The translations under genes and the position numbers were made by a program. DNA of 64,000 bases from the NCBI RefSeq assembly GCF_027595165.1, contig NZ_CP097291.1:744001-808000 (forward strand), given 5' to 3'. The DNA is from Providencia sp. PROV188. GTDB taxonomy: Bacteria; Pseudomonadota; Gammaproteobacteria; Enterobacterales; Enterobacteriaceae. How positions within the stretch are numbered: position 1 is the stretch's first letter; each line of letters starts with the position of its first letter. The notes under the pieces are model-generated. The model was not told the DNA's origin, searched no databases, and was given only the letters and a program-made list of their open reading frames with translations. Below, in pieces: positions 22,004 to 30,495 of the stretch.

Positions 22004-22052
22004 TTTGAGTTAATTCCCTCCTTCAAAGATAAAATATCTTTTTTAGATAAAT

Positions 22053-22085
22053 AAAGTCCTAGTTAAATACTAGGGCTTTGTTCTT
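22053..22085 (+). terminator. Terminator of the ribE-pgpA cluster
   Basis: AAAGTCCTAG (22053-22062) pairs with CTAGGGCTTT (22070-22079) with one wobble, then GTTCTT. Confidence 0.8.
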
Positions 22086-22762
22086 ATCCTAAATTACTTT
22101 TTATTTTTACTTCTATTTTTTATGAATAAAGTTAAATTTATTTTTATTATGAAAAATAAAAAATTCGTTATTTGTAAAAATTAATTTCACTATAATTATG
22201 CTTTCATCATAGTTTCCTATTTATTAAAAAATGTAAAAAACAAAGAATCAATATTAACTCGAAATATGGGTGGTTATTTTATTTTTTATTTTTCTGTTAT
22301 GAGAAAAAAATAACTTAGTCAAATTAACGTATACGTGATGTTTGGTATATTTATTTTATTATTTAAGTGAGAATGATTTTCATTTATTTAAATTCGAAAA
22401 TCACAAGTATGATTTATTTAGGTTGTTTTTGTTAATTTAATGTAATCAAAAGTTGATTAAAGTTAAGGTTTTTAATTGAATTTACTAATCATGGGTGTAC
22501 TTTGGGGTTTTATTATGAAATGGCAATTTACAGATTGTTACTGATATGACTCTTGAGGTGCGTATACCGAGTAAGAATATTCAAGTAGTATGCTTGGGAA
22601 ATAACAAGCATGAATTAGTTTTTATAAAACACGCCTTAATTTATTTTTTAGAAAAATTAAATTTTTATTTGGCTTGTTATTTTTTAATAAAGTCATATCG
22701 GTTTTGTTTTGATAAAAATATATTTATTTCAATTTTATATTGCCTATTAATAAGGGTTTACT
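22086..22762 (+). promoter_or_regulatory. AT-rich control region and leader of the fimbrial operon
   Basis: About 680 bases without a convincing gene and far more AT-rich than the flanks. It holds a perfect palindrome ACGTATACGT (22327-22336), a Fur-box-like dyad (22368-22382), and a 7-bp hairpin (22590-22596 with 22605-22611) in the presumed leader. I found no inverted-repeat pair and no recombinase gene that would suggest an invertible promoter. A 75-codon frame at 22546-22773 has no ribosome site and overlaps the pilin start, so I do not call it. Confidence 0.7.
22368..22382. promoter_or_regulatory. Fur-box-like dyad upstream of the fimbrial operon
   Basis: TGAGAATGATTTTCA matches the 7-1-7 Fur motif TGATAAT-G-ATTATCA at 13 of 15 positions, including both TGA/TCA ends and the central G. 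It lies about 380 bases before the first pilin gene and would imply iron control. Confidence 0.5.
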
Positions 22763-23302
22763 ATGTTAATTAATAAAAAAAATCTGATCGTATTATCTAT
22801 CGCTGCTGGCTTAGGCTTTTCAGGTGCAGCAATGTCAGCAACGAACGCACAAGTGACAGTAACTGGAAATATTGCTGCTGCGACATGTGATTTAAGCGTC
22901 ACAAATACCAATATCGATTTAGGAACGTTTATCTCTTCAGATATTCAAACGGTTGGAACTATAGCTGGTAGTACTCATAATTTTGATATGAGCTTATCCA
23001 ACTGCAGCCAAGAGTTTGATGGTGAAAGTGGTAAGTTCGTACAAATGTACGCGAAAGGTACTGCTTTAGCAGCGAATACTTCTTTATTTAACAATGTTGA
23101 AAAAGGAACTGTTGGTGTGGCAGTGACTGCTGACGGTAAAGAAGTAAAGCCAAATACAAACGTTCAATTAAGCAGCATTAAGTCTCTGGCTGAAGGCGGT
23201 TCTGCTGTGATCCCAATGAATGTGGCATTGAACTCAACTGTGAGCAAACCCGCTTCACAACGTATCGAAGCGCCGATTACTTTCTCTGTAAGCTACGAGT
23301 AA
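22763..23302 (+). CDS. Fimbrial major pilin subunit, chaperone-usher type
   Basis: Probable main shaft subunit of a surface fimbria. 179 residues with a signal peptide ending near residue 26 (AAMSA). The mature start carries an alternating hydrophobic donor strand (QVTVTGNI) followed by C42; C81 in SLSNC completes the pilin disulfide. The C-terminus FSVSYE has the penultimate Tyr read by PapD-type chaperones. First in the operon with AGGG upstream; first position and typical size suggest it is the most abundant subunit (inference). I cannot name the fimbrial type. Confidence 0.88.
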   Translation: MLINKKNLIVLSIAAGLGFSGAAMSATNAQVTVTGNIAAATCDLSVTNTNIDLGTFISSDIQTVGTIAGSTHNFDMSLSNCSQEFDGESGKFVQMYAKGTALAANTSLFNNVEKGTVGVAVTADGKEVKPNTNVQLSSIKSLAEGGSAVIPMNVALNSTVSKPASQRIEAPITFSVSYE

Positions 23303-23365
23303 GTTTGTTGTGAAATGGCAGGTTTCTGCCATTTCACTTTGTAACGCATCACGAGAAGGTAAAAC

Positions 23366-24094
23366 ATGAAATTATTCACTTTACTCCGTACGCTCCCTAT
23401 TTTTGCAACTCTGTTTTTTATTCAAATAGGAACGACATCTGCGGCTGGAGTCGGTATCAATGCCACTCGAGTTATTTTCAACCAAGGAAATCAGTCAGTC
23501 CCTGTCACTCTGCGCAATAGTACAGAGAAGGAAGAATATTTGGTTCAGGTTTATCTGACAAAAACCGCCAAAGGTGCGGCGCAAGACCAAACTTTAGATG
23601 TGCTTCCTCCTATGTTCTATCTGGCATCAAGCCAGCAGCGCGATGTTCGTTTAGTGGAAGGCGCAGGAGCATCTGTATTACCGAAAGATAGGGAATCAGT
23701 TTTTTATTTTCATGCTAGAGCCATTGCGGCAAGTGAAAAGAATGCTGGGCAGCAGAATGCAGCAATGAAAGGTGAAGTGAAAATTGCATTAGAGAGTGTG
23801 ATTAAAGTTTTTTATCGCCCTAAAAACCTAACGTTAACGGTAGAGCAAGCTCAAGGTAGCCTGACATTTGAAGAGACAGCGAGCGGAATCAAAGTGATTA
23901 ATCCATCGCCGTATTACATCACATTGTCATCATTGAGTGTGGGGGAAAAAGCGGTGACGTTAAACCCTGAAATGAATAACACCATGATAGCGCCTTTTAG
24001 CAGTATGGATTACCCAACCCCGGTGAAAAAAGGCAAAAAAGTCTGGGCTGTCATCAATGATCTTGGGGGACGAAGTGAGTATTCACAACCTTAA
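23366..24094 (+). CDS. Fimbrial periplasmic chaperone 1 (PapD-like)
   Basis: Periplasmic chaperone that folds pilins by donor-strand complementation and hands them to the usher. 242 residues, signal peptide ending near residue 26 (TSAAG). The two subunit-anchoring residues are present: Arg in NATRVIF and Lys in the G1 strand VIKVFYRP. Other hallmarks are LPKDRESVFYFHARAI, NPSPYYITLSSLSVG and MIAPFSS. The stretch between strands F1 and G1 (SEKNAGQQNAAMKGEVK) is longer than in PapD. It follows the pilin after 63 bases, and its 3' end overlaps the next gene. Confidence 0.93.
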   Translation: MKLFTLLRTLPIFATLFFIQIGTTSAAGVGINATRVIFNQGNQSVPVTLRNSTEKEEYLVQVYLTKTAKGAAQDQTLDVLPPMFYLASSQQRDVRLVEGAGASVLPKDRESVFYFHARAIAASEKNAGQQNAAMKGEVKIALESVIKVFYRPKNLTLTVEQAQGSLTFEETASGIKVINPSPYYITLSSLSVGEKAVTLNPEMNNTMIAPFSSMDYPTPVKKGKKVWAVINDLGGRSEYSQP

Positions 24095-24641
24095 ACTGGG
24101 ACAGTATCGATGGGCGCTTTTCGCTGGGATATTTTCCATTGTGGCGATACCTGAAGTGAATGCAGCGAATACCCTAGAGTTGACCGCAGAAATTGACAAT
24201 GCAGGAGAGTGCGATATTGCGGTTAGCCCTTCATTGATTGAATTCAAACGACGTCCTTCTGTGGGCGAATTTGCGGCGAATGATGCGGTAGATATCCAGC
24301 TATTAAGCTTGTCGTATAAATGTACGGGCTATGAAACCAATGCTCGCCCTGAAATAAAAGTGACAGGGAATACAGCTGCCGATACCAATTTGTTTTTAAC
24401 AGCTGATCCAAAAGGCGCCAAAGGCGTTGGTTTTATGCTGAAAGATGGCGCGGTGAAGGAGCTTTCTGGTTATTACAATGCAGGAAAAACAGTCGTTAAT
24501 GGTGATTCTGTGCTTCTACCCGTAGGGGATAATGATGGAGAAAAACCTTTTACGGTAGGGTTTATTCGCCAAGTCGGTAATAACACCGTCACTGCAGGTG
24601 CTGTGAAAGCGGCCATTTTATTCACTGTTGTGATGCCATAA
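24075..24641 (+). CDS. Fimbrial minor pilin 1
   Basis: Second pilin-like subunit, about 188 residues from GTG 24075, which has GGGGGA just upstream; an ATG at 24057 has no ribosome site but would also stay in frame. Signal peptide ends at about VNA/ANTLE. Pilin disulfide pair C46 and C83, a donor-strand-like ELTAEI after the signal, and a C-terminal ILFTVVMP beta strand. It lacks the usual penultimate aromatic. It overlaps the chaperone 1 gene by 20 bases. Role as tip, adaptor or anchor subunit cannot be told from sequence. Confidence 0.8.
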   Translation: MSIHNLKLGQYRWALFAGIFSIVAIPEVNAANTLELTAEIDNAGECDIAVSPSLIEFKRRPSVGEFAANDAVDIQLLSLSYKCTGYETNARPEIKVTGNTAADTNLFLTADPKGAKGVGFMLKDGAVKELSGYYNAGKTVVNGDSVLLPVGDNDGEKPFTVGFIRQVGNNTVTAGAVKAAILFTVVMP

Positions 24642-24652
24642 ATGGAGGTGAT

Positions 24653-25189
24653 ATGAACAAGTATTCATATTTTCTTATGGCTTCATTATTCGTTTTTACA
24701 GGGGAAATGTTTGCTGCCTCAAATTCGGTGAGTATTAACTTTGATGCGCATTTATATCGCAGAACGTGCGATGTAAACCTCTCCGAAAGTGTGGTGGCTT
24801 ATGGAAAAGTGAAACCTCAAACCATTGTTGATAATGACTTAGGTACCAGTACCGCTCTGAATCGTAATGTTATTTTAACCTTAGCTAACTGCTCAGGACT
24901 GGGAACATTAAATGGTAGCAAAGTCATTGTGACTGGTCCTAGTCAAGTCATGAACGGGGAAGCCCTGTTTAAGGAAAGTGGCTCTTCAGGCGGTGTGGGG
25001 ATTCGATTAAAAGCAGATGGAAAAAATAAGGTCAGTGGAGATTCAGTTTGGGATTTGTCTACGACCAGCAATCAAGGAAGTCAAATTACAGTGGTCACGG
25101 CACTTTCATGTGGAAATTGTCAAAACATTCAGAAAATTCAATTAGGCACATTTAAAGCCACCATGATGTTTACCGTTTTAGCTTATTGA
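24653..25189 (+). CDS. Fimbrial minor pilin 2 with an extra CxxC motif
   Basis: Pilin-like subunit of 178 residues with a signal peptide ending near residue 22 (MFAAS). C39 and C80 are the standard pilin pair; C153 and C156 (CGNC) form an additional CxxC that pilins do not normally have. The C-terminus MMFTVLAY has a terminal aromatic. TGGAGG lies just before the start. The following chaperone frame touches its stop. Probably a tip or adaptor subunit (inference). Confidence 0.82.
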   Translation: MNKYSYFLMASLFVFTGEMFAASNSVSINFDAHLYRRTCDVNLSESVVAYGKVKPQTIVDNDLGTSTALNRNVILTLANCSGLGTLNGSKVIVTGPSQVMNGEALFKESGSSGGVGIRLKADGKNKVSGDSVWDLSTTSNQGSQITVVTALSCGNCQNIQKIQLGTFKATMMFTVLAY

Positions 25190-25245
25190 GCCGTTTATTG
25201 AGTGATAAATCTATTAATAATAAAAATAACGGAATACTTTCAAAA

Positions 25246-25998
25246 ATGTTTAAGAAAACAGGTGCATTATTTTTCATTTCTCATTTATTGGTGCTGTTAA
25301 TTAGCATTAACGTTAATTCAGCACAAGCGGGATTACGTCTAGAAAAAAGTCGTATTATTTGGAGTGATTCCGACACTCAGCAATCAGTGGCATTAACCAA
25401 TGACAGTGATGACATTTATTTAATTCAGTCCGGTGTATTTAATACACCAACGGGCACTCAAGAATCGCCACTGTTTTCTGTTATTCCACCTTTATATCGT
25501 TTAGATGCGAATAAACAGCAAACGATGAAAGTCTTATTACAAAGCTCTCCAGAATCATTGCCTCAAGATAGAGAGTCAGTTTTCTATTTTAGCGCGATTG
25601 CTATTCCTGGTGTTTCTCCTGAATTAACAGAAAATGCAGCGGCGCAATTATCTATCGGTACTCGCTTAGTCATTAAGCTATTTTATCGTCCCGTTAAATT
25701 TACTCAGTCGCCAGATGCTGCCGTTGCTAATTTGCAATTTCATACATCGCCGAAAGGTTTATGTGTAGCGAATCACTCCCCTTATTTTATTACGCTCAGC
25801 GAAGTCAAAGTGGGTAATCAAGTGTTTGCTCAATTCGCTGGCACGATGGTGGCACCTTTTAGTCAGCAGACATTGGCGATTTCAGAATCCATTTCCGTAC
25901 AAACTCCGATGCGTTGGCAAGCCATCAATGATTACGGTGGTGACACTGCGCCTTACTCCGGTTCTGTGAAGGAGAATAAGGGGCTGTTATGTCAGTAA
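25246..25998 (+). CDS. Fimbrial periplasmic chaperone 2 (PapD-like)
   Basis: Second PapD-type chaperone. I choose ATG 25246 (250 residues) because it starts directly with a signal peptide (MFKKTGALFFISHLL..., cut near SAQA/GLRL); an upstream TTG at 25186 would add 20 polar residues. Anchor Arg is in KSRIIW and Lys in LVIKLFYRP; LPQDRESVFYFSAIAIP, NHSPYFITLSEVKVG and MVAPFSQ are chaperone motifs. It has an unpaired Cys in the second domain (GLCVAN) and another near the C-terminus (LLCQ). Clearly different in sequence from chaperones 1 and 3. Confidence 0.9.
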   Translation: MFKKTGALFFISHLLVLLISINVNSAQAGLRLEKSRIIWSDSDTQQSVALTNDSDDIYLIQSGVFNTPTGTQESPLFSVIPPLYRLDANKQQTMKVLLQSSPESLPQDRESVFYFSAIAIPGVSPELTENAAAQLSIGTRLVIKLFYRPVKFTQSPDAAVANLQFHTSPKGLCVANHSPYFITLSEVKVGNQVFAQFAGTMVAPFSQQTLAISESISVQTPMRWQAINDYGGDTAPYSGSVKENKGLLCQ

Positions 25999-26738
25999 TG
26001 AAATCGCTGTGTGGGTGGATTTTAATGATGACGCTAAGCCATGCATTTGCCTCAGAGACAAATGAAGGTTTTCATTTTTCACCTGAACGTTTGGTCTATT
26101 TGGAAAGTAATACCAAAGGGATCTCTGCGGGTCTACAAAATGGTACCTCAAAAGCGGCATTGATCCAGGCGCAGGTTGTACCGACAGATCTTCAAACCGG
26201 TTTACCTTTGACTGAACATCAAGGGGAAAGTCATGAGGCTTTTTTGATTACGCCGCCATTACATAAATTAGATATCAATGAGCGTTTTAACTGGCGTATT
26301 CAGCGTGTTAATGATGGAAAGCTCGCTACCGATAGAGAAACTGTTTTCTACGTTGCACTGAAAGTGATCCCAGAATCTAGCGCGAATGATAAGGCCTCAT
26401 CACAATTTATTTTGGCGCCAACTATTTATTTAAAAATGTTGTATCGCCCGAAACAAATTGAAGAATTGCGTTTAGATGCTCAAACCGCAAAGTTAGACGT
26501 CACTGTGCAAGGCAGCAAAATCACGATTACTAATCCAACGCCACTCTCTATGACATTAGCCAGCCTGTCAGTGGGGGATTATGAGGTGCCAGTAGAAAAG
26601 TTCACCCATGGAATTGCCCCTTTTGGGCAACAGGTTATTTTTCTCGAAAAAAATGTATCAGGTACGATTACATGGCGTGTGTTGAATGAATACAGCATAC
26701 CTACAAAGGTTGAAGTGAGAGGCGAGAATGAAAGCTAA
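25989..26738 (+). CDS. Fimbrial periplasmic chaperone 3 (PapD-like)
   Basis: Third chaperone of the operon, 249 residues, signal peptide ending near residue 21 (AFASE). Anchor Arg is in PERLVY and Lys in IYLKMLYRP, with TDRETVFYVALKVIP, NPTPLSMTLASLSVG and IAPFGQQ motifs. It is the most diverged of the three; the RESVFYF signature has become RETVFYV. It overlaps chaperone 2 by 10 bases and the usher by 11, so the three are translated as a block. Three chaperones for one usher is unusual and suggests each serves different subunits (inference). Confidence 0.9.
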   Translation: MSVMKSLCGWILMMTLSHAFASETNEGFHFSPERLVYLESNTKGISAGLQNGTSKAALIQAQVVPTDLQTGLPLTEHQGESHEAFLITPPLHKLDINERFNWRIQRVNDGKLATDRETVFYVALKVIPESSANDKASSQFILAPTIYLKMLYRPKQIEELRLDAQTAKLDVTVQGSKITITNPTPLSMTLASLSVGDYEVPVEKFTHGIAPFGQQVIFLEKNVSGTITWRVLNEYSIPTKVEVRGENES

Positions 26739-29310
26739 AATGCGTGATGGCGCTTTTACCGTCTCTCCAATTGCTTTGGCTCTGGCATGTTGTTTATCCA
26801 TGGGGAATGCGGTGGCAGAACCTTATTTTGATCCGACACTATTAAATCTACCTGAAGGAACTAGCGTAGATAGCATTGATTTATCTGCATTTACGCGCTC
26901 TGAATCGGTAACGGCGGGGCGTTATATGGTTACACTGAGGATCAACAAAGAAGATCAAGGGCAAAAAGAGATCTATTTTTCCGCAGATACGGCGGGAAAT
27001 ATTGTGCCGGAAATTACACCTGCGTTATTAGATGAATATGGCGTTAATGTTGAGAGTATTTCAACATTAAGATCCTTACCAAAAGATGAACCGATTGCGT
27101 CTTTAGAGGCTGCTCTACCAGATTCTCAAGTTCAGTTTGATATATCTAAGTTGGATCTCAATATCAATATTCCTCAAGTTGCCATGCGTCATAAATCGCG
27201 TGGTGCGATAGACCCGAGTTTATTGGACCAAGGGGTCACTGCGTTTTTGTTTAATTATCAAGTCAATGGAAGTAAACAAAAGCACAGTGGCTCCAGTGCA
27301 AGTGGTAAAAATACCAATGATTCGTTGTATGCCAATATTAGCGGTGGTTTTAACTTGGCGGCGTGGCGCTTGCGTTCAAACTTTCAGTATATGGAAAACA
27401 AATCCAAGAGCAATGGCTACAGCACCAGTCATCGGGAAAGCGAGTTTTCGCGCATAACGGTTTCACGGGACATTCAGCGTTTAGATTCTGAGTTAGTGAT
27501 TGGGGAAACCAGTACACTCAGCGATGTCTTTGATAGCGTTCCATTTAAAGGTGTTCGCTTGTTATCGAATGAACTCATGCTGTCCAAAGGAGATCGTGGA
27601 TTTGCTCCGGAAATTCGTGGTGTTGCAATGTCTAACTCGCGGATCATCATCAGACAAAATGGCAATATTATTTATCAAACCTATGTGGCACCAGGACCTT
27701 TTGTCATCAATGATATTTATCCAACGGGAACGGCAGGGGACTTAGAGGTTTCTGTTCAAGAGGAAGATGGAACAACGCGAGTATTCACTCAAGCATTCTC
27801 TTCATTGCCCGTCATGCAACGTGCTGGCGGAGTTAAATATGAAGTTGCTACGGGTAAATATGATGGAGGGATCACGGACGGTTCCAAAGAGCAGCAGTTT
27901 ATTATGGGAACGCTGATCTATGGTTTACCGAAGTCAATCACTCTGTATACAGGTTTACTCGGGGCAAATCATTATTGGAGCGGAATGGTTGGAACTGGGA
28001 TTTCACTCGGTAGTTTTGGTGCGCTTTCCATGGATATTACCCACGCACAAGCCTCAATTAATCATGAAAGTAAGCAAGGGCAATCTCTTCGTGTTCGCTA
28101 TTCTAAAAACTTATCAGAAAGTGGCACATCCGTTGATTTAACCGCACTGCGCTACTCAACGAAAGAATACTACAGTTTTGCGGATTTCAACCAAGTGGGT
28201 TATCAGTTAAAAGAGAACGTTGCACCGTGGCTTAATGGTCGCCAGCGTAGCAGTTTCCAAACCTATATTAACCAATCTCTGGGTAAATGGGGTTCTATCT
28301 ATTTACGCGGAATGCGCAGTGATTATTGGGGTAAATCTGACACAGTAACGACGCTAGGTATTGGTTATAACGGTTTTTATCGTGGTATCAACTATGGCAT
28401 TGATTACAGCATTAGCCGTACCGAAGGTAATGGAAATTGGCCTGAAAATAAGCAAGTTAGTGTGAATATGAGTATTCCATTCAGCATTTTCAGTGAACAC
28501 AAGAATATTGAGAACATTAATAGTACGTTCCAAGTGAGCCATGATAATTCAGGGCGCACTTACCAGCAGGTTGGTATTAATGGCCAGTTATTAGATAACA
28601 AGCTGAGTTATCAGCTGACTGAAAGTGGCGATAATCGCGATCAAAAAATGACAAGCTCGGTGAATGTGGGCTATCAAGGCAGTAAAGGGTATTACGGTGG
28701 CGGATATAGCTATGGTCGTGATAGCCAAATGATGTATGCCAATGCATCAGGTGGAATAGTTATCCATTCAGGTGGTGTTTTGCTAAGTCAGTATTTAGGT
28801 AATTCGGCAGCCATAGTTTATGCCCCAGATGCAGCGGGAACTAAGGTGAATAATGGCTCAACGGTTATCGATGCCAATGGCTACGGTATTATTCCGCATT
28901 TATCAGACTATACGCAAAATATTGCAAATTTGGATGTGAATACATTACCTGAGAACGTTGAAAGCAAAGAGAATGCGCTGAACCTTTACCCAACTAAAGG
29001 GGCAATTGTGAGAGCGAACTTTAAAACCTTAAAAGGGTATCAAGCGATGATCACTTTGCAGCAACCAAACAACGTTCCAATGGGCGCAATCGCCTCGTTG
29101 CACCAAGATGATAATACAGATGATGCCATCATTTCAGGCATTGTAAGTGATAACGGACGCGTTTATTTAAGTGGATTGCCAGAGTCAGGGCAGATAGTTA
29201 TCAAATGGGGTAAAAGTGGTTCCGAGCGCTGCGAAGCGCCTTTTAATATGGATAAATCCACAGAAAATGCCTATTCATCATTACGCAATTTAACCCTGTC
29301 ATGCCACTAA
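26728..29310 (+). CDS. Outer-membrane fimbrial usher
   Basis: FimD/PapC-family outer-membrane assembly platform through which pilins are threaded. 860 residues, normal for the family. Signal peptide ends near residue 31 (NAVAE); the N-terminal chaperone-binding domain opens with PYFDPTLLNLPEG (usually F-N-x-x-L). The barrel/plug region carries YQTYVAPGPFVINDIYPTG near 314 and PVMQRAGGVKYEVATGKY; C-terminal domains end with a Cys pair (about 835 and 859) in the classic RCEAPF...TLSCH form. Only one usher is present, so all pilins should share it. A two-domain adhesin follows directly. Confidence 0.96.
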   Translation: MKAKMRDGAFTVSPIALALACCLSMGNAVAEPYFDPTLLNLPEGTSVDSIDLSAFTRSESVTAGRYMVTLRINKEDQGQKEIYFSADTAGNIVPEITPALLDEYGVNVESISTLRSLPKDEPIASLEAALPDSQVQFDISKLDLNINIPQVAMRHKSRGAIDPSLLDQGVTAFLFNYQVNGSKQKHSGSSASGKNTNDSLYANISGGFNLAAWRLRSNFQYMENKSKSNGYSTSHRESEFSRITVSRDIQRLDSELVIGETSTLSDVFDSVPFKGVRLLSNELMLSKGDRGFAPEIRGVAMSNSRIIIRQNGNIIYQTYVAPGPFVINDIYPTGTAGDLEVSVQEEDGTTRVFTQAFSSLPVMQRAGGVKYEVATGKYDGGITDGSKEQQFIMGTLIYGLPKSITLYTGLLGANHYWSGMVGTGISLGSFGALSMDITHAQASINHESKQGQSLRVRYSKNLSESGTSVDLTALRYSTKEYYSFADFNQVGYQLKENVAPWLNGRQRSSFQTYINQSLGKWGSIYLRGMRSDYWGKSDTVTTLGIGYNGFYRGINYGIDYSISRTEGNGNWPENKQVSVNMSIPFSIFSEHKNIENINSTFQVSHDNSGRTYQQVGINGQLLDNKLSYQLTESGDNRDQKMTSSVNVGYQGSKGYYGGGYSYGRDSQMMYANASGGIVIHSGGVLLSQYLGNSAAIVYAPDAAGTKVNNGSTVIDANGYGIIPHLSDYTQNIANLDVNTLPENVESKENALNLYPTKGAIVRANFKTLKGYQAMITLQQPNNVPMGAIASLHQDDNTDDAIISGIVSDNGRVYLSGLPESGQIVIKWGKSGSERCEAPFNMDKSTENAYSSLRNLTLSCH

Positions 29311-29325
29311 TTGGATGAATATTTT

Positions 29326-30429
29326 ATGAAAATCAATGTAATAAAGAACAAGATATTAGTGGGATGGAAAAGCTTACTACTGAGCTGTGTGTTAACTTTT
29401 ATGGCGAGTATACCCAGTTTTGCCAAAACAGTGACGGTTATGAATGGACGTGGATTGATTGGTGTTTATGGTGAATATAATACTTCGCTAACGGGGATGA
29501 CGAACCCACCCGCTTGGAATGAAAAGGCTAATTTTTACTATGTACAGTTTTATAATAATTTTAATGGAATCATAAACTACTGTGTTGATCGTGGGGGGTT
29601 AGTCATCAATATTGATGGTGTCAGAGGGATGCCTATTGCTGGCGGTGAGATGATCATGGTACCTGAATTTGTGTTTGTTGATGAAAGAAGAAACTACTCA
29701 AACAATAGCTACCTCGATACCATCACTGGGCATTTTAATGGATGGGGATCTGGTACCAATGAGCAGTTAGGTATAGGAGACTGCCTCTGGTCCCCCAATC
29801 AAAGTACGCCAACACCGGCAATACGCCATACCGTTACCGCAACAGGGCGTATGTTGATTTATGGAACGGGTAACCAACGTAGTGGCACCTACCGATTAGA
29901 TGATGATATTGGCATTGTTATTCAAAATCCTCAAAATAGAACGACTGCCAGGCAAATTGTTCCCAAAACAGAAAATATTATCGTGACGGTATCAGGGCTA
30001 ACTTGCACATTAAATACACCATCTTATGTTAATTTTGGTTCTCATAGTGCAAGTAGCAAAAGTAATGAGTTGCTTTCTACTATGCGAAATAACATGTCGG
30101 TGCAGTGCGATCAAATTGCGAATAAGATCGCCGCGACGATTTCGTTATCAGGCAATGTGAAGCCGCAGTACTACGCAGGCAATAATCTGGAAGTGAACTT
30201 ATTGAATGCTCAACAGCAAGCCGGTGCGTATGTCAAAATGTACGTCATGGTTAATGGTAATAAAACACCGATTACCTTAGATCAGAAGCCGATTGATTTA
30301 GCTAAAATTACCGCACTACAAACCAATGTTAGCTTTAATAATGAGCTAGTGTATGAGCTTTATTCTCGTGGTAATAATGTGGCGGGTAAGGTGAGTGGCA
30401 GTGCAGAATTATCAATAATTATGCGCTAA
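29326..30429 (+). CDS. Two-domain fimbrial tip adhesin, receptor unknown
   Basis: Probable tip adhesin. About 367 residues from ATG 29326 (GGAT at 29313-29316); a TTG at 29311 would add five residues. Signal peptide ends near residue 33 (PSFA). Two Cys pairs, C86/C153 and C227/C261, fit an N-terminal receptor-binding domain (about 34-215) and a C-terminal pilin domain (about 218-367) that begins SGLTCTLNTPSYVNFG and ends SGSAELSIIMR, as in FimH/PapG/F17-G-type adhesins. The binding domain (Trp/Tyr/Asn-rich, e.g. GHFNGWGSGTNEQ) resembles none I can name. Last gene before a strong terminator. Confidence 0.82.
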   Translation: MKINVIKNKILVGWKSLLLSCVLTFMASIPSFAKTVTVMNGRGLIGVYGEYNTSLTGMTNPPAWNEKANFYYVQFYNNFNGIINYCVDRGGLVINIDGVRGMPIAGGEMIMVPEFVFVDERRNYSNNSYLDTITGHFNGWGSGTNEQLGIGDCLWSPNQSTPTPAIRHTVTATGRMLIYGTGNQRSGTYRLDDDIGIVIQNPQNRTTARQIVPKTENIIVTVSGLTCTLNTPSYVNFGSHSASSKSNELLSTMRNNMSVQCDQIANKIAATISLSGNVKPQYYAGNNLEVNLLNAQQQAGAYVKMYVMVNGNKTPITLDQKPIDLAKITALQTNVSFNNELVYELYSRGNNVAGKVSGSAELSIIMR

Positions 30430-30453
30430 AAGTAAGATGAATTAGTCCGTGAT

Positions 30454-30490
30454 TTAAGGCGTTACTTTTGTGGTAACGCCTTAATTTTTT
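30454..30490. terminator. Terminator between the fimbrial operon and dxs
   Basis: Perfect 12-bp stem, TTAAGGCGTTAC (30454-30465) with GTAACGCCTTAA (30473-30484), followed by TTTTTT; it can act for both convergent units. Confidence 0.92.
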
Positions 30491-30495
30491 ATAAG

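Follow-up and report, generated by a model that had tools for sequence, protein, structure and literature searches.

We analyzed a 64,000-nucleotide stretch of the genome of Providencia sp. PROV188 (G000), called the window here, and found that its positions 22763 to 30429 hold a real, complete gene set for an adhesive pilus. The eight genes all lie on the + strand in the order pilin, chaperone, pilin, pilin, chaperone, chaperone, usher, adhesin; open reading frames (ORFs) and Pfam matches agree with the original prediction on order and strand and identify three PapD-type chaperones (C1, C2, and C3) and one usher. Judging from sequence comparisons, we probably have here a classical (FGS-type) chaperone-usher operon, still intact, from a lineage with three chaperones; this lineage either is sister to the gamma-2 fimbriae or extends that group broadly, and the family placement is very likely correct. 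The system is of an ordinary kind, a chaperone-usher pilus, and the plan of its family is widespread and gamma-2 related.

The first gene, P1 (22763 to 23302, + strand, 179 aa), is probably the major pilin: its Pfam match (DUF2574) and its FimG/BcfE-type NCBIfam matches (E values = 1.2e-7 and 1.3e-6) were all below threshold, and its PDB match was FimG (E value = 2.8e-6). It is followed by C1 (23366 to 24094, +, 242 aa; PF00345, E value = 1.2e-25; PF02753, E value = 2.7e-15) and by two minor pilins, P2 (24057 to 24641, +, up to 194 aa with a more internal start possible; PF00419, E value = 3.9e-6) and P3 (24653 to 25189, +, 178 aa; PF00419, E value = 1.9e-5, slightly below the gathering score). 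C2 (25246 to 25998, +) is 250 aa long when read from its ATG, within an ORF that opens upstream at TTG 25186 (PF00345, E value = 1.1e-26; PF02753, E value = 1.3e-14), and C3 (25989 to 26738, +, 249 aa) is the poorest PapD match of the three (PF00345, E value = 1.9e-17; PF02753, E value = 6.1e-6). The usher (26728 to 29310, +, 860 aa) has all of the PapC/FimD-type N, pore, and C domains (PF00577, E value = 5.3e-163; PF13954; PF13953; FimD and PapC in the PDB). The last gene (29326 to 30429, +, 367 aa) had no family match; in its predicted structure, it is a two-domain tip adhesin with a receptor domain and a C-terminal pilin domain at approximately residues 224 to 367.

Overlaps of 10 to 20 bases had been predicted in the second half of the operon, and this stands for C2/C3 (10 bp) and C3/usher (11 bp) but not for usher and adhesin, which do not overlap if ATG 29326 is the start; C1 and P2 overlap by up to 38 bp. 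Upstream lies an AT-rich region (22009 to 22762) that we presume to be promoter or regulatory DNA and that is missing from the empty pgpA-dxs site of genome G296. Downstream, a terminator-like hairpin on the + strand (30454 to 30484) has a 13-pair stem and then a T run; 12 terminator-like sites were found in the region, compared with 6.2 in shuffled sequences. An upstream phase-variation switch was considered and rejected, the repeats there being only AT rich and chance-like, with no convincing invertible or inverted repeat, and an RNA element was rejected as well, the single match (to a snoRNA) being below the gathering score and taken as chance.

Alignment to an empty site confirmed that the operon sits between pgpA and dxs. 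The window aligned with the empty site of G296 as far as position 22008, and the alignment resumed at 30494; 57 bases of G296 in the gap stayed unaligned. These breakpoints indicate an insertion of about 8.5 kb that separates the ends of pgpA and dxs, genes that directly adjoin each other in G296 and G307. The companion claim that the operon replaces yajO has to be given up, as Escherichia coli YajO had no match (E value ≤ 1e-40) in 21 of the 24 Providencia genomes, including the operon's own, and matches of only 36 to 38% in the other 3. The same site carries the operon in 5 of the 24 genomes (its own and four with 85 to 96% usher identity). The junction as a whole (window positions 22009 to 30493) is variable across Providencia: in the 18 of 24 genomes with a pgpA match at an E value of ≤1e-50, pgpA has P1 beside it in 5, dxs in 2, and dxs about 750 bp off in 1, with neither within 1.5 kb in 10. 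In four of the latter 10, a longer stretch was read, and it holds a transporter gene and electron-transfer-flavoprotein-like genes after pgpA (named by eye). A 489-kb record labeled as a P. alcalifaciens plasmid (L022, NZ_OU659131.1) was seen to carry the core genes ribE, nusB, thiL, pgpA, dxs, and ispA, and it may therefore represent part of a chromosome or else a chromid.

The three chaperones bear out what had been claimed of them. Equivalents of the subunit-anchoring residues Arg8 and Lys112 of PapD align in all three; their mutual identities of 27 to 34% confirm a clear difference in sequence (identities to FimC are 28 to 34%), and the F1-G1 stretch does vary, with 27, 24, and 22 residues in C1, C2, and C3 and 22 in FimC by a count made by eye on the alignment, starting at the F1 "AI/VI" and ending at the anchoring Lys. 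Across the 68 operons used for building chaperone profiles, the anchoring Arg was kept in 67, 68, and 66 and the anchoring Lys in 68, 67, and 65 of the C1, C2, and C3 proteins, respectively. In a tree of 299 chaperones, the operon positions fell into three groups holding 76 of 79 C1, 73 of 79 C2, and 69 of 70 C3 proteins (supports of 90, 86, and 93), together with 4, 5, and 12 members from other positions, mostly from operons with a lost or moved chaperone. Nine operons had been kept out of the profile training, namely, the rearranged ones and L093, whose second chaperone the tree placed with C1, and in 9 of 9 the profiles recognized exactly one C1, one C2, and one C3. These results indicate that each of C1, C2, and C3 is a conserved orthologous set of its own, recognizable in rearranged operons too.

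Next, we looked at how common three chaperones are. The source genome has 19 ushers, and their operons carry three chaperones in 3 cases, two in 2, and one in 14; the other two three-chaperone operons, L124 (G000:C1:3364500-3384000) and L125 (G000:C1:112000-130000), have ushers 47% identical to that of the window. These two are sister operons in one genome, 96 to 100% identical in C1, P2 to P4, C2, C3 (aligned part), and usher, with 78% identity in the major pilin, 76% in the pilin domain of the adhesin, and 28% in the N-terminal part of the adhesin; the C3 ORF of L125 is short (187 versus 268 aa). Across the 24 Providencia genomes, 21 of which have at least one usher match above the score break, three chaperone loci were present with 45 of the 48 usher matches of at least 619.9 bits, a set that takes in every such match and leaves out one 615-bit match cut by a contig end. 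L097 and L203 in the 45 have a broken chaperone ORF and L125 has its short C3, and the three exceptions are L088, in which C3 and part of C2 remain, and L202 and L208, in which C1 remains. In the next 15 full rows (562 to 516 bits; usher fragments lower in the Providencia list were left out of the count), an usher was called in 14 and one chaperone was found in 13; L214 was counted with two because its chain continues into the following operon, and L215 is an usher fragment with no full usher ORF (50% identical over its part).

The same division appeared in usher trees. In a tree of 139 ushers (142 unique rows, with L022, L176, and L026 dropped before the count), the window usher and CsmD of CS30 shared a clade of 85 rows (support, 95) that held all 77 operons automatically counted with exactly three chaperones, whereas the 54 ushers outside it had one chaperone in 49 cases and two in 5. 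The remaining eight members of the clade are L094 and L101, where by our reading a chaperone of the neighboring operon was also counted; L203, where C3 is split into two ORFs; and L088, L202, L208, L233, and L241. The loci from outside Providencia came from genomes of the same GTDB-style family picked by C3 or adhesin similarity and from named plasmid and E. coli records, so the counts there do not represent a random sample. An earlier tree of 78 rows gave a corresponding clade of 43 rows (support, 99), and when 41 chosen ushers were analyzed with a mixture model, the three-chaperone rows, 24 in all, grouped in one clade (support, 95) in which the gamma-2 pair was the first to branch, with the window usher sister to that pair (two gamma-2 references). 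Three-chaperone operons of the window kind span 19 genus codes. An usher match with an E value of 1e-100 or better was found in only 3 of the 369 genomes of the class besides G000, at 30 to 33% identity; mostly two candidates were scored per genome, so this only hints that the lineage may not extend beyond the window's own family, broadly defined. The original prediction had set the operon apart from most chaperone-usher operons, which have one chaperone or in some cases two, and had proposed usher phylogeny as a test; the trees of 139, 78, and 41 rows go largely against it, placing the usher in a lineage that includes CS30 and has three chaperones as its standard. With three chaperones also published for the gamma-2 fimbriae, exceptional novelty is unsupported; the window plan differs from theirs in the gene order and the possession of three full two-domain chaperones.

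The order P C1 P(1-3) C2 C3 U (P, pilin; U, usher; A, adhesin) was found in 67 of the 85 operons of the clade, and an adhesin-sized ORF (340 to 460 aa) lay no more than 900 bases after the usher in 69 of 85. Among named records, the window plan occurs in P. alcalifaciens, in the E. coli plasmids pEC21Z048-116K (L024) and pRHB37-C15_2 (L169), in Morganella morganii and Candidatus Erwinia impunctatus, both with a single minor pilin, and in Proteus mirabilis H63, but there with no long ORF directly after the usher. L024 has the order P C P P C C U and then a large last gene, and L169 has one more pilin before that gene; both differ from the window operon in being plasmid borne, the L024 usher is only 35.9% identical to that of the window, and the L169 usher stands apart in the trees. 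EAL-domain genes were seen after fimbrial operons in L024 (10696 to 11445) and in L083, a Serratia plasmid (10773 to 11999), which suggests cyclic-di-GMP control. Rearranged operons have the order P C1 P P C2 U A C3 in five cases, U C3 A in one, C2 and C3 ahead of C1 in one, and C2 after the usher in one; C3 and the adhesin are adjacent in six, whereas in the standard order the usher gene separates them. In the open-license papers searched, we found no description of the order P C1 P(1-3) C2 C3 U A and nothing on gamma-2 fimbriae together with Providencia; one structural paper mentions three chaperones, but these belong to different systems.

The type 1 fimbriae (FimA to FimH) share the classical pathway with the window operon, whose usher and chaperone match FimD and FimC in the PDB, but they have one chaperone, and FimD lies across the split from the window usher in the trees. 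Like the window operon, the gamma-2 fimbriae of enterotoxigenic E. coli (987P/F6, CS12, CS18, CS20, CS26, and CS30) combine a single usher with three chaperones, pilins, and a large adhesin. Gamma-2 classification rests on usher grouping, and the window usher is in a supported clade with the only two gamma-2 references included, CS30 CsmD and the C8 plasmid usher; an AU test in addition disfavored holding this pair with 12 FimD-like one-chaperone ushers (P value = 0.032). The number of chaperones is also equal, with three stated for gamma-2 loci in PMC5216030 and PMC5624918. All this would fit a strict gamma-2 fimbria with reshuffled genes, in which C1, C2, and C3 would correspond to chaperones B, C, and E of 987P/CS18, yet we think this rather unlikely. 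The gene order differs (P C C U C P A in CS30 against P C1 P P C2 C3 U A), and csmC and csmE of CS30 are single-domain accessory chaperones of 143 and 136 aa (listed as single domain in Table 2 of PMC5624918), while those of the window all have two domains; in the C8 plasmid operon, which is gamma-2-like, just the second of these chaperones is short (155 aa). A recombinase-controlled phase switch is a feature of CS18 and probably of CS30, not of every gamma-2 member. FotS/FotT-type recombinases accompany CS18 and CS30, and none was recognized by eye among the ORFs of at least 80 aa between 19.5 and 34 kb of the window. Moreover, chaperone tree and profiles disagree on orthology: the tree puts csmC with C3, the profiles put it weakly with C2, and by the profiles, csmB and csmE are nearest to single chaperones. 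A one-to-one match of csmB, csmC, and csmE to C1, C2, and C3 was set aside, and firm gamma-2 membership was not adopted; we keep to a lineage that is sister to gamma-2 or a broad extension of it.

We then asked how each chaperone covaries with the subunits, using partial rank correlations of distance matrices conditioned on the usher and the other two chaperones, in 48 operons (57 with the full standard set, less those with near-identical ushers). C1 correlated with P1 (0.50) and P2 (0.17), C2 with the last pilin (0.30) and P2 (0.21), and C3 with the adhesin (0.22) and P1 (0.16), all other chaperone-subunit pairs being below 0.1. The top partner in 300 subsamples was P1 for C1 in 300, the last pilin for C2 in 298, and the adhesin for C3 in 286, with P2 having no clear partner (C2 in 192, C1 in 104, and C3 in 4). 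In a partial matrix of all genes, each chaperone correlated with the usher at 0.36 to 0.41, and the values were 0.49 for C1-P1, 0.24 for C2-last pilin, and 0.13 for C3-adhesin. Mantel tests on the first alignment gave P values of 0.002 for C1-P1 and C2-last pilin and 0.004 to 0.006 for C3 with the two adhesin halves.

When the operons were split by taxon (21 from Providencia and 27 others), C1-P1 was the sole pairing that was good in both halves (0.38 and 0.58). C2 tracked P1 (0.36), the last pilin (0.49), and the adhesin pilin domain (0.35) within Providencia and nothing in the others (0.06 for the last pilin); C3-adhesin was 0.07 within Providencia; outside it the value was 0.37, and there C3 also tracked P1 and the last pilin (0.29 each). 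Also on the contrary side, the two sister operons of G000 have C1 proteins 99% identical yet P1 proteins only 78% identical, and L202 keeps a full-length adhesin ORF although its C2 and C3 are lost. Neighboring genes may share a recombination history, which confounds C1-P1 and C2-last pilin; adjacency alone, however, leaves unexplained why C1 prefers P1 over the equally adjacent P2 and why C3 is linked to the adhesin across the usher gene. Taken with the taxon split, the correlations make it likely that C1 serves the major pilin, whereas the pairings of C2 and C3 are plausible, and the full three-way pairing, which adds the minor pilins for C2 and the tip adhesin for C3, has an even chance of being right.

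Redundancy would be a contrary account, with three duplicates kept for dosage and any chaperone serving any subunit. The anchoring residues kept in all three agree with it, as do several off-diagonal Mantel results (P values of 0.002 for C1-P2, 0.002 for C2-P2, 0.014 for C3-P1, and 0.03 for C1-last pilin) and the operons that are left with fewer: L202 and L208, two Providencia operons, have lost C2 and C3 and retain C1 only, and in L233 and L241 (18- to 19-kb loci, two operons of one other genome, G093), C1 was not found and C2 and C3 are kept. However, the three sets stay distinct across the 19 genus codes, with one of each in rearranged operons; the distance correlations vary by subunit; and the losses are of C2 and C3 jointly or of C1 by itself, which makes redundancy improbable. 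Still more improbable is an accessory locus that has degenerated or fallen silent. Some related operons (L097, L203, and L208) do show visible damage, but all eight window ORFs are open, and the operon recurs at its site with usher identities of 85 to 96% in the four other genomes. The division of labor put forward in the original prediction has, then, real but partial support, which is not proof: three conserved sets and a C1-P1 pairing seen in both taxonomic halves speak for it, and the links of C2 to the minor pilins and of C3 to the adhesin are weaker and do not appear in every subset.

If the system works as the known pathway does, the pilins and the adhesin would enter the periplasm, a chaperone would cap each subunit by donor-strand complementation, and every chaperone-subunit complex would go to the one usher, with the adhesin exported ahead of the minor pilins and these ahead of the rod. 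C1 may do the capping for the major pilin, C2 for the minor pilins, and C3 for the tip adhesin, with uneven support for the three. Different chaperones for rod and adhesin were reportedly described in 987P by Edwards and co-workers in 1996. We tentatively suggest, as a possibility that falls a little short of an even bet, that a large Enterobacterales pilus lineage, one that the papers searched do not describe, keeps three full-length chaperones, each for one class of subunit (C1 for the rod, C2 for the minor pilins, and C3 for the tip adhesin), and that export order is in part set by the chaperones and not by subunit affinity alone.

The three-chaperone plan has so far been known mainly from E. 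coli colonization factors; it is common in Providencia, with at least one usher match above the score break in 21 of 24 genomes, and is present in other Enterobacterales. Usher-ordered subunit assembly has mostly been studied with one chaperone. Three separable chaperones, together with natural losses and rearrangements, would make a chaperone-encoded order of assembly directly testable.
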